This document shows, one piece after another, positions 51,537-62,820 of a stretch of 64,000 bases of DNA. Position numbers and translations under genes: made by a program. Source of the stretch: Tubiluchus corallicola (lineage: Eukaryota; Priapulida; Priapulimorpha; Priapulimorphida; Tubiluchidae); contig JAQGDQ010000172.1 of the NCBI GenBank assembly GCA_030141605.1, forward strand, positions 310,001 through 374,000, in the 5' to 3' direction. The notes under the pieces are model-generated. The model worked only from the letters and a program-made list of their open reading frames with translations, made no database searches and was not told the origin of the DNA. Position 1 is the stretch's first letter; every line of letters starts with the position of its first letter.

Positions 51537-52820
51537 TTTATCTAGATAATAGTTTAGCAGCCGTCTCGAAAGGTTTCAAACTGAAACTGTCCGATCAACA
51601 AAAATTTGTACTGTAGCTTACCAGCACGTGAAGGTGACGCCAATAGATTTTGCTACACCGGGTTGAACAAGATTTTTGCTACCGGCAAACTATACAATGC
51701 TAGTTTTTTTTCAGAAATCAATTACTGGCGTAAGGTATGTAATCGAAGAAACTCCACGCTATATTTCTGTGCACTGCATTCATAATAAATAGGTACGGAT
51801 AATCGAATACACAACACGCTGCGTTTACCGTCTGTTGAGTCACCTACAGTGAGCCGGATGAGTGCATCGCGCGACGGAACAAAATTTTATTATCTATGGT
51901 CGAAGCCTATAGATCCTCATTATATCCGCGCTGCTACAGTCAAGGCGATTCACAGTGGCTATACTAATATTTCTATCAGGCTCCTACAAATCCACATCAT
52001 AAAGGAGCAAGCCAAAAGGAAAACTGTATCCTGTCCTGTCATGCTGTTGTTATAGGGCTGTTGTAAATCGCTGATGTAAATATCCGCATCCGAAGAATTT
52101 TCGGATTTATATGGAGAGCTGAAATTAAGCAATCCGGTTTCAAAATTATGTACATCATTGCGTGACAACTATGAGATGTATGAACCATACTAAGACTCAG
52201 TTCATGGTGGTAAACGGTGATGTAGCCGATGACCAGCCCATGAAATGAGAGATTTCCAAATTAAGCACACATCTGCGTACGTTTATTTAGGAGCTACTAT
52301 CACAGATGACGGGAAGACTGATTCAATAGTCAAGGATCATATGCAAGAAAAGAATGCAAAAAACGAAGATTTTCCCTACTATGTGAAGAAAAGAGTCCTA
52401 GAGTGTGCACTGTTGATGGCAATATTCTACAGCTCCCAATTGGAATACAGAGAGAACATGGGCAAAACTTATGAGAAATACTTTTCGCCGTGAACCTTTA
52501 ATGAAAATTGTCGCCATAGCAAGGAATGCAAGCAGAAAACTTCTTAGATGTCTTGACCAGCTCCAGGCGAATTACTGGCCGAACTATATACCTCAGCTGA
52601 GAGTTTTGTTAGAACAGCGCATAAGGAATTGGGTTAATTCTATACGTTGTGTATTCTACTTGGAAATGAGCCCCGGTCTCGAAACTCCTCGTTTTGAATT
52701 AACAATATTTGAGCATCATCGGATAAGCTTCACAAGAATGCATCTTCAGTCACATAGGCTGCATATAGAAACGGGTAGATTGGCGAGACAGCCAAGGGAA
52801 ATAGGTTATGTCCTTGTGGG

Positions 52821-53191
52821 TGTTGTGTTTTGTTTCTCTCAGAAGGCTCGTAGAGAAAACCAGAAAACACGCCGTTAAATATTACTACTTTATTTACTGA
52901 GAATTCTACTACACAAAAAGATGAAGGTACGAGAAATGATTATACTAAACGTGAAAATCTGGAAAACATTTAAGTATATCTGAAAAGGTAAGTATACAAG
53001 TATAAGTCCGTCTAGATCTGCGTGCTCTGTGTGCGATCCCGTGTCGGCAGCCTGCTTCGCCTTATATAGCGCGCTGTAGAAACTTCTCGAACAAATGTTC
53101 GAGAACAATGCAGACGGTAAGGCGGTCATTCCGACGGAACATTCTACGATGTTCTATGCAATTCTAATTGATGGCAGCGATCTCCACAACA
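52821..53191 (-). mobile_element. Solo LTR, 371 bp, with 5-bp TSD
   Basis: Starts TGTTGTG and ends CACAACA, a TG...CA terminal inverted repeat, and is flanked by identical GTGGG (52816-52820 and 53192-53196). It interrupts a LINE coding tail that would otherwise be continuous, which fixes both edges. On the minus strand it has the promoter order expected of an LTR: HSE-like motifs, TATATAAG (near 53063-53070), then AATAAA (52889-52894). No internal retrotransposon genes remain, so it is a solo LTR left by LTR-LTR recombination. The superfamily (Ty3, Copia or BEL) cannot be told from this. Confidence 0.85.
53062..53145 (-). promoter_or_regulatory. LTR promoter: TATA box and heat-shock-element-like modules
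   Basis: On the minus strand, AGAATGTTCC (53136-53145) is followed by GTTCTCGAAC and then GTTCGAGAAGTTTC (within 53078-53107), then GCTATATAAG. Two of these are inverted GAA/TTC pairs two bases apart, and the third is a three-unit TTCnnGAAnnTTC array, the heat-shock factor consensus. The position just upstream of a TATA box is right for a heat- or stress-responsive promoter. Function is inferred only. Confidence 0.5.
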
Positions 53192-53485
53192 GTGGGGACA
53201 TTCAAACTGAGAAACACGTTATACAGACATGCCACCTTACATCTAATATTAGAAACCGCTACGACAATTTAAACTTTGCTGATTTAACTCGCTTCTTTGA
53301 GCACCCTAATCGTTATATAATATGTCACAAAATTTTGCAACTTTTATGCTGACGTACCTTGTATGCATAACACTGTTTTTAATACTATAACCTTGAGTAG
53401 GAAATGTACGTAAAGTGTCAATCTGGACCAAAATCACTAACGTATCGATTTTGGCATTAACCTTGTTCTTCGCGTATACATGTAA

Positions 53486-54775
53486 CTTGTTTTAGTCAAT
53501 GAACTACATACATACTCTACATCTCTAATACACACAACAGAAAATTGGAGACATAGTTTAGACAACAAGCAATACATTTTAGCAGCATTTTTGGATTTAA
53601 GTAAAGCTTTCGATAGCATTAATCACGAACTACTTTACGATAATTTAAAACAAATCGGATTAGATTCGATATCGTTAAAACTGATACAAAATTATCTCAA
53701 AGATAGACAACAACGAGTAAAGTTAGATACAATCAACTTTTCTGACTGGGCCACGTTAAACAGAGGTATACCGCAAGGAACACTACTAGATCCGTTATTA
53801 TTTTGCCTATATATAAACAACATATCCAGTGTATTAAAACACTCACAAATAACGCAATACGCTGATGACACTACAATCTACATAGCCCATGAAAATGTCC
53901 AAACTGCAAAAAATTATTTAGAAGAAGATATAAAAAATATAAATATGGCATTTAGTCATTACAAGCTAAAAATGAATAATGACAAAACAGAATTCATGAT
54001 ACTGTCACCCTCATTAAATACTAATGATGCATCATCAACCACTTTGACAATAGATAATGCTGTAATCAAACAAACTAACAATGTTAAATTCCTGGGCATA
54101 CAAGTAGACAATAATCTTTCATGGGATGATCACTTTAATAACATATACACAAAAATGGCATCTAGCACATCATATCTCCGACAAGTTAAAGGGCAACTAA
54201 CAAAGGAAACTAAAACACTAATATATAAAACTTTAGTTCTACCACACTTCTTATATGGATGTACGCTACTTCAAAAAACCAAAAGGGAAAATTACTTAAA
54301 ATTAAATCTCCTTCAAAATTATGCGTTGAGATTGATAGCTGGGTACTCATACAAACACAAGGCAGGTAGACAAAAATTCAAAGCTTCAACAACTAACCTG
54401 AGAAAAACTTTAAAATTCCCAATCATTGAAGCACACAAAGAATATTTTACTCTGCTTTTTATATTTAAATACATTAACAACATCAGCAAACCATTCCAGA
54501 ATAACAGATTTACCTTTTTTCCAAATCCTATCGTTAATTCCAGAACAAGCAATCTAAAACAAATTAGGACAAATACCCACTATGGAACGAACTCTGTAAT
54601 CAAACAAGCAATTTTACTTTGGAATTCTCTACCATTACAGGTTAAACAAATCAAGTCCCTAGCAGCATTTAAAACAAAATTAAAATCACTAATATTAACC
54701 AGATATGAAATACCATCACACCAGTACGACAACATACACACTAATTCCGAATTCATATACCCACGGCCATATTAA
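53486..54775 (+). pseudogene. 5'-truncated LINE (CR1/L2-like) reverse transcriptase
   Basis: Open frame from after a stop at 53483-53485 to TAA at 54773-54775. It covers the RT fingers/palm from AAFLDLSKAFDSINH (motif A) through RGIPQGTLLDPLLF to QYADDTTIY (catalytic YADD) and KFLGIQVDNNLSWDDH, then the thumb and the C-terminal tail typical of CR1/L2-type elements (ILLWNSLPLQVKQIKSLAAFKTKLK). The endonuclease domain and N-terminal RT are missing, so it is dead on arrival, although about 430 codons stay open, which argues for a young insertion. The 3' UTR ends with AATAAA (54967-54972) and a TA-repeat tail. It lies immediately after the older LINE remnant. Confidence 0.88.
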
Positions 54776-61818: not shown

Positions 61819-62820
61819 ATGGTGGAACATAAGGGACATGCAATTAGCGAGGAAGAAGCTGCCTTATATGACAGACAAATTCGCTTATGGGGTCTAGATG
61901 CACAGAAACGATTAAGGGGTAGTCATGTCTTAATAGTAGGGCTTCATGGCCTAGGAGCAGAAATTTGTAAAAACATTGTTCTAGCTGGAGTTAAAGCTGT
62001 TACACTGCTTGACGATGAAAATGTCACTGAAGAAGACAGAAATTCACAGTTCCTCGTGGAACCAGCAGATGTTGGTAAAAATAGGGCACTCTGCTCCGTG
62101 GAGAGGACTCAGCAACTGAATCCGATGGTCATCATTGATGCCGACACACAGAATGTCAGCGAAAAAAGTGACCAGTTTTTCCACAATTTCGATGTTGTTT
62201 GTCTCACTGGCTGTGTCAAGGAACAGTTGATCCGTGTTAACAATATATGCCACTCACAAGGGATCAAATTCTTTGCAGGTGATACGTTCGGATATTATGG
62301 TTTTCTGTTTCTTGACTTATGCCATCATGATTATGTTGAAGAAGTTCGTCATGTTATTACTAAGGATGATAACAGTGGCAGCAAGAAGCAGAAAGTAGAT
62401 GAGACCAAACTTGTGAAACGATCCGAAACTTACATTACTTTCCAGGACGTGTTGGAGTTTGACTGGTCCACTCCCAAAGCTGTTAAGGGACTCAAGAAGA
62501 CACCGTCGACTTATTTCCTTTGTTTAGTGCTATTGCAGTTTCGCTGGTTGCATGGAAGATTGCCTTGTCATGGGGATCACGACCAACTGCTTGCGGTCAA
62601 GCAAAAAGTTTTGGAAGAACTGAAAGTTGACAAGAACATTTTGTCCGACTCATTTGCTGAACATTGTAAAGGTGAACTGAGTCCAGTATGTGCTATTGTT
62701 GGAGGCATTTTAGGCCAAGAAATAATCAAGGCTGTATCGTGTAAAGATGCGCCTCATAATAACTTTTTCTTCTTTAATGGTATTGAAGGCAGTGGGCTTG
62801 TAGACTGCATCGGCAAATGA
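61819..62820 (+). CDS. SAE1: SUMO-activating enzyme subunit 1
   Basis: Small (Aos1-like) subunit of the heterodimeric SUMO E1. With UBA2 it adenylates SUMO in the nucleus; the catalytic cysteine lies on UBA2. It has 333 residues in one uninterrupted frame (human has 346). The adenylation-domain start SEEEAALYDRQIRLWGLDAQ (10-29) is followed by the nucleotide-binding loop VGLHGLGAEICKNI (40-53) and TLLDDENVTEEDRNSQFL. Further on are FFAGDTFGYYGF, a Lys-rich segment GSKKQKVDE, and the conserved C-terminal half with CAIVGGILGQEIIKAVS and PHNNFFFFNGIEGSG. The start is the first ATG, in the context AATCATGG. The frame is intact with no frameshift, so it is probably functional. Most animal SAE1 genes are split by several introns, so intron loss or an expressed retrocopy is possible. 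Confidence 0.96.
   Translation: MVEHKGHAISEEEAALYDRQIRLWGLDAQKRLRGSHVLIVGLHGLGAEICKNIVLAGVKAVTLLDDENVTEEDRNSQFLVEPADVGKNRALCSVERTQQLNPMVIIDADTQNVSEKSDQFFHNFDVVCLTGCVKEQLIRVNNICHSQGIKFFAGDTFGYYGFLFLDLCHHDYVEEVRHVITKDDNSGSKKQKVDETKLVKRSETYITFQDVLEFDWSTPKAVKGLKKTPSTYFLCLVLLQFRWLHGRLPCHGDHDQLLAVKQKVLEELKVDKNILSDSFAEHCKGELSPVCAIVGGILGQEIIKAVSCKDAPHNNFFFFNGIEGSGLVDCIGK

Follow-up and report, generated by a model that had tools for sequence, protein, structure and literature searches.

ONSEN (ATCOPIA78) of Arabidopsis is a heat-activated Ty1/copia retrotransposon for which HSFA2 binding and induction have been proven, and in every copy the LTR promoter contains the HSF motif nTTCnnGAAn, which ties the element to the heat response of its host (PMC3907296); it can also confer a heat response on neighbouring genes (PMC6927752). 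The promoter of Drosophila copia, named as the animal counterpart of ONSEN, has heat-shock consensus sequences, but lacks the at least three nGAAn units required for high-affinity HSF binding (PMC3907296). In Cryptococcus, TCN12 and TCN3 have one or two putative heat-shock elements (HSEs) in the LTR and are mobilised at 37 C (PMC12810828), and the Helitrons of Caenorhabditis are HSE-bearing mobile elements and a main source of the HSEs in an animal genome (PMC6927752). Proven LTR heat-shock promoters are known mainly from plant ONSEN; in the animal example, copia, the site is weak. Within open-access text, and so as a weak absence, we found no description of an HSE-bearing family in an animal Ty3/gypsy element, nor any literature on insect or arthropod HSE-bearing LTR elements.

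We analysed a stretch of 64,000 nucleotides of Tubiluchus corallicola (hereafter the window), in which a decayed LINE is interrupted by a solo LTR with the following features:

52275-52820, plus strand: upstream part of the decayed LINE, remnants of the RT C-terminal region seen in translation, with stops and frameshifts
52816-52820, no strand: left copy of the target-site duplication (TSD) GTGGG, by direct reading
52821-53191, minus strand as sense: solo LTR of 371 bp, TGTTGTG...CACAACA, by direct reading, with the same ends in copies across the genome
52889-52894, minus strand: AATAAA polyadenylation signal of the LTR, in the R/U5 region (sense position 298)
53061-53068, minus strand: TATA box TATATAAG, 10 bp after the HSE array and near-invariant among copies
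53079-53105, minus strand: proximal five-unit HSE array TTCtcGAAcatttgTTCgaGAAgtTTC, made of two units, a 6-nt gap and three units (2+3)
53137-53154, minus strand: distal heat-shock module GAAcatcgtaGAAtgTTC, three good units and one degenerate unit in 5-bp phase
53192-53196, no strand: right copy of the target-site duplication GTGGG, by direct reading
53197-53346, plus strand: downstream part of the decayed LINE; a zinc-knuckle-like motif, CPCG before the insertion point and DIQTEKHVIQTC after it, spans the junction

The exact insertion edges reported in a first-pass annotation of this DNA are confirmed: the LTR opens with TG at 52821 and closes with CA at 53191, has a 7-bp terminal inverted repeat (TGTTGTG/CACAACA), and is flanked by GTGGG on both sides. 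The same annotation held that the host LINE frame resumes across the LTR, and translation of the joined flanks bears this out: once the LTR and one GTGGG are removed, the frame runs continuously from GNRLCPCG into DIQTEKHVIQTCHLTSNIRNRY, and the flanks without the insert read GNRLCPCGDIQTEKHVIQTCHLTSNIRNRY in a single frame, a LINE-like C-terminal motif. A Pfam search with the decayed LINE around the LTR gave no match, and the label “dead LINE” is a fair one, with the LINE identity resting on motif reading rather than on a family match. A second LINE (window 53591-54775, plus strand; a 394-aa open frame encoding an RVT_1 domain) follows shortly after the one that hosts the LTR. Further along, at 61819-62820 on the plus strand, there is a 333-aa single intronless frame of the SAE1/AOS1 type (SUMO-activating enzyme subunit 1; ThiF E 1.5e-40), which may be a gene with few introns or a retrocopy.

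The element in the window is a solo LTR, the remnant of a retrotransposon of a Ty3/gypsy-type family after recombination between its two LTRs. When its LTR was used as a query against the genome, the best 40 of 988 candidate places were scored, at 86-93% identity; for the LTR of a second subfamily, the best 40 of 1011 candidate places were scored; and a 19-mer promoter tag, TATATAAGGCGAAGCAGGC (the TATA tag), has 272 exact occurrences. The copies that we read are mostly solo LTRs, many of them with a perfect 5-bp duplication. According to the first-pass annotation, a lack of paired-LTR elements in the genome would have counted against its reading; such elements were found at four sampled places (C1986, C268, C1745, and C2031), one of them with Ty3/gypsy coding domains. 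Perfect 5-bp TSDs flank three of the pairs (C268, AGATT; C1745, GTAAT; and C2031, TAATG; read at their ends only), and in these three, RT matches are located between the LTRs. The fourth (C1986:478598-483689, L031) is the one pair whose interior was read as well: two LTRs in the same orientation enclose a gag with two CCHC knuckles and pol domains in the Ty3/gypsy order, namely RVT_1 (E 3.5e-12), RT_RNaseH (E about 6e-35), Integrase_H2C2, and rve. Its reading frames are broken, and its protease motif, ELDTATSG, was identified by eye only. The best PDB sequence matches of its RT are the RT/RNase H chain 4ol8 (E 3.8e-11) and the Ty3 Gag-Pol 7q5b (E 1.8e-10). No env gene was seen between the integrase and the 3′ LTR of this element; about 80 nt separate the end of the last frame from the LTR, which leaves no room for env in this one copy, and an env-bearing provirus of the insect errantivirus kind was rejected. 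At a further place (G000:C1295:1512-6893, L032), two LTR copies in opposite orientation lie within an inverted duplication (about 1 kb, 99.9% identical).

A tRNA primer site, TGGCGCAGTCGACAGGAT, follows the 5′ LTR, and a polypurine tract, GGTGGGGAGG, adjoins the 3′ LTR; the primer site TGGCGCAGTCGACAGG, five bases inside the 5′ LTR, shows small differences between copies. An exact genome search for a primer tRNA ending in CGACTGTG found nothing, and CGACTGCG matched three identical places (L089 in C1862, L090 in C2091, and L091 in C2163). These are not tRNA genes, since in each the R-U5 end of the LTR family is fused to TGGCGCAGTCGACAGGATTCGAACCTGTGCGGGAAAATCCCAACTGATTTCC, which reproduces the 3′ half of a serine-like tRNA with a long variable arm. 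They look like an integrated minus-strand strong-stop product that extended into its primer tRNA, and probably represent one duplicated event, since the three places have common flanks. This suggests a tRNA-Ser as the primer of the family. In all features compared (LTR ends with TSD, pol order, RT similarity, and primer site with polypurine tract) the family agrees with Ty3/gypsy. Two CCHC knuckles and a serine-like primer are, we presume, compatible with the Mag lineage of Ty3/gypsy, a placement that we offer as a lead only. The LTR family may already be present, unnamed, in a repeat library.

The first-pass annotation had described three GAA/TTC modules, including a three-unit array, upstream of the TATA box; the promoter position stands, while the unit count does not, the array here having five units. 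At the same position, sister subfamilies have six units (GAAtgTTCtgGAAcaaaacTTCtgGAAgcTTC), and the window copy has lost the first (sixth) of them, with CAT in place of GAA, its TATA box being intact. The family's U3 promoter carries a predicted HSF-binding array of 2+3 or 3+3 GAA/TTC units, with TATATAAG 10 bp downstream of it. This agrees with the definition of an HSE as three or more nGAAn units that alternate in 5-bp phase close to a promoter. In the window copy, 31 bp separate the distal module GAAcatcgtaGAAtgTTC from the proximal array downstream of it on the sense strand, and at each core position of this module about 30 or more of 34 LTRs share the same letter.

Since GAA and TTC are common in AT-rich DNA, the array could in principle be a coincidence in a single copy, and single three-unit sites are indeed common genome-wide (6773, against 4071 for the reversed pattern). 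The longer array behaves differently: the five-unit pattern TTCNNGAANNNNNNTTCNNGAANNTTC has 512 genome matches (257+255), against 0+0 for the reversed control, and in 5000 dinucleotide shuffles of the window LTR the number of GAA/TTC pairs (4) was reached in 0.04% and a perfect three-unit site in 0.6%, while a five-unit array arose in none. Together with the contrast between core and spacer columns over 34 copies (see below), these counts leave chance with a negligible likelihood. The 512 matches correspond to about 300 places (58 places per 100 matches listed) rather than 512, since six-unit arrays score on both strands. Among 18 of these places that we sampled, 17 lie in the LTR family (the exception is L053), so the family supplies nearly all of the multi-unit putative HSF arrays sampled in the genome; this dominance concerns complex arrays, the excess of single three-unit sites being smaller. 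A second perfect three-unit HSE in the window, GAATGTTCCAGAA at 2701-2713, is not within any LTR copy and is consistent with chance. We also observed, among the three-unit HSEs of the genome, a recurrent overlapping pair of TTCGAGAACTTTC with TTCTCGAAACTTC or TTCTCGAATCTTC (for example, at C2:939636, C14:11574, C4:473502, and C4:478357), which is possibly another HSE-bearing repeat family.

Conservation was measured in 34 LTRs, picked by overall similarity or RT adjacency, with the motif never used in the selection. Over the whole LTR the mean majority frequency was 0.888; it reached 0.961 in the 15 core columns of the array and 0.978 in the TATA box, and fell to 0.752 in the 12 spacer columns within the array. 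When this core/spacer template was slid along the LTR, the contrast of 0.21 between core and spacer at the array ranked 1 of 345 template positions. In 22 of the 34 LTRs (65%) all 15 core letters equal the majority, where random column sets give 22% (P 0.004 by a column permutation that assumes independent columns); this measure is not unique to the array, being reached by 19 of the 345 positions, and the spacer contrast is the informative one. The spacer at columns 104-105 shows seven dinucleotides (GA, TG, TA, AA, GG, CA, and AG) between a near-invariant TTC and GAA. A conserved core with drifting spacers is the footprint that would be expected of selection by HSF. According to the first-pass annotation, copies lacking the GAA/TTC modules at this place would have counted against its reading, which survived, as 29 of the 34 LTRs keep a perfect three-unit HSE and it is the spacers that vary freely about a fixed core. 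In an independent sample of 46 LTRs with the exact TATA tag (those in contigs common to the array and tag listings, hand-counted and possibly younger than average), the array is perfect in all 15 letters and correctly placed to the base in 21, where 17-22% would be expected under neutrality (binomial P below 0.001); we treat this sample as supporting evidence only.

The same alignment bears on two other accounts of the conservation. One is that the array is kept as a hairpin in the retroelement RNA, as the 10-bp perfect dyad of the window copy (TTCTCGAACA/TGTTCGAGAA) would allow. The spacer letters that would have to pair are fully complementary in 12 of 33 copies, but not at all in 11 of 33, and sister subfamilies with TTCtgGAA...TTCtgGAA cannot pair via their spacers; given this lack of compensatory changes the hairpin is largely refuted, and we regard it as highly improbable. 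The other account is that the array binds a different activator, such as a STAT-type factor. TTC and GAA half-sites also occur in STAT sites, which require TTCN3-4GAA. The array has instead the 2-nt spacing, alternating orientation, and 5-bp phase that HSF sites follow, and units of this kind recur in the hsp70 promoters of the host; a STAT-type site was rejected on spacing, and some such other activator seems very unlikely.

An array that HSF would recognise is the preferred reading of the conserved core, and the host has the components for it. A gene with an HSF DNA-binding domain is present in the genome, and three intronless eukaryotic-type hsp70 genes (L066-L068) have three-unit HSEs upstream of TATATAAG, which lies about 15-25 bp past the nearest HSE, a positive control for the layout in the same genome. 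With the array 10 bp before the TATA box and the hsp70 promoters arranged likewise, the first-pass description of a heat-shock-inducible promoter layout is supported. Capture of the LTR promoter from a host hsp70 gene is disfavoured: the LTR and the hsp70 flanks have in common only matches of 12-18 nt, chiefly at the HSEs themselves, so that convergence is more likely, an old capture being the less likely origin. Several bacterial groups seem to be represented among the DnaK genes of bacterial type that were also found (L063, L064, L065, L069, and L070, in C20, C575, C1995, C1605, and C1997); the contigs that carry them are symbiont or contaminant.

The best explanation, which we hold with good confidence, is that the window element is a solo LTR of a Ty3/gypsy-type family whose U3 promoter, with its HSF array, is predicted to be driven by stress; the family was probably switched on by heat or stress. 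Under stress, the host HSF would trimerise, and one or two trimers would bind the LTR array at its paired three-unit sites and recruit polymerase II at the TATA box TATATAAG. The predicted transcript would run from R-U5 through gag-pol to the AATAAA of the 3′ LTR, and would be copied with the serine-tRNA-like primer and inserted with 5-bp duplications, after which LTR-LTR recombination would yield solo LTRs. Every insertion, solo LTRs included, would thereby place a ready-made, portable heat-shock promoter at a new site.

The age of the insertions bears on whether this still happens. Divergence within the four LTR pairs is K = 0.083-0.093 (8-9%), and the nearest LTR relatives found are ~94-95% identical; the sampled insertions are therefore old, no recent burst is seen among these pairs and relatives, and present-day mobilisation is not supported by the four-pair sample. 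It is accordingly conceivable, if clearly short of an even chance, that only a fossil is left, the ancestral elements having been heat-responsive and the family now being dead with its LTRs silenced. The diverged pairs, the broken frames of the element examined, and the predominance of solo LTRs all fit such an end, but about 300 places keep a perfect five-unit array, several RT matches lie in long stop-free frames, and solo LTRs would be able to act as promoters whatever the coding capacity of the family. At the other extreme, a Ty3/gypsy family that is still active, driven by HSF through a promoter of hsp70 grade, with its ~300 dispersed LTRs as the main high-affinity HSF sites of the genome that alter how neighbouring genes respond to heat or serve as an HSF sink, seems unlikely. 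As for the window copy itself, a heat response today is predicted with some doubt, at slightly under even chances: five of the six units are retained and the TATA box is intact, but the copy lies in a decayed LINE, and its minus-strand orientation directs it away from the SAE1-like gene (61.8 kb).

The family offers a natural experiment, with hundreds of related predicted heat-shock promoters at different positions and with different unit variants (3, 5, and 6), and could reveal whether stress-responsive promoters aid the spread of mobile elements or alter the stress response of the host. Among the known systems, the Caenorhabditis Helitrons are DNA transposons whose link to heat shock has been studied in an animal, whereas here we have an LTR element and sequence evidence. 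TCN12 and TCN3 are fungal elements with fewer putative HSEs and with mobilisation shown, while the present family is known from its sequence. Copia is, like this family, an animal LTR retrotransposon, but belongs to another superfamily, and five to six units are present here. The closest likeness is to ONSEN, in the conserved HSF element of the LTR (29 of 34 copies here, with a contrast ranking 1 of 345); on paper the family would work like ONSEN, and its place in the heat-activated class rests on sequence, the defining step being induction. ONSEN is a plant Ty1/copia element with proven induction, whereas this is an animal Ty3/gypsy family with a five- to six-unit array and hundreds of copies, one whose strong putative HSF array has persisted while several subfamilies diversified.
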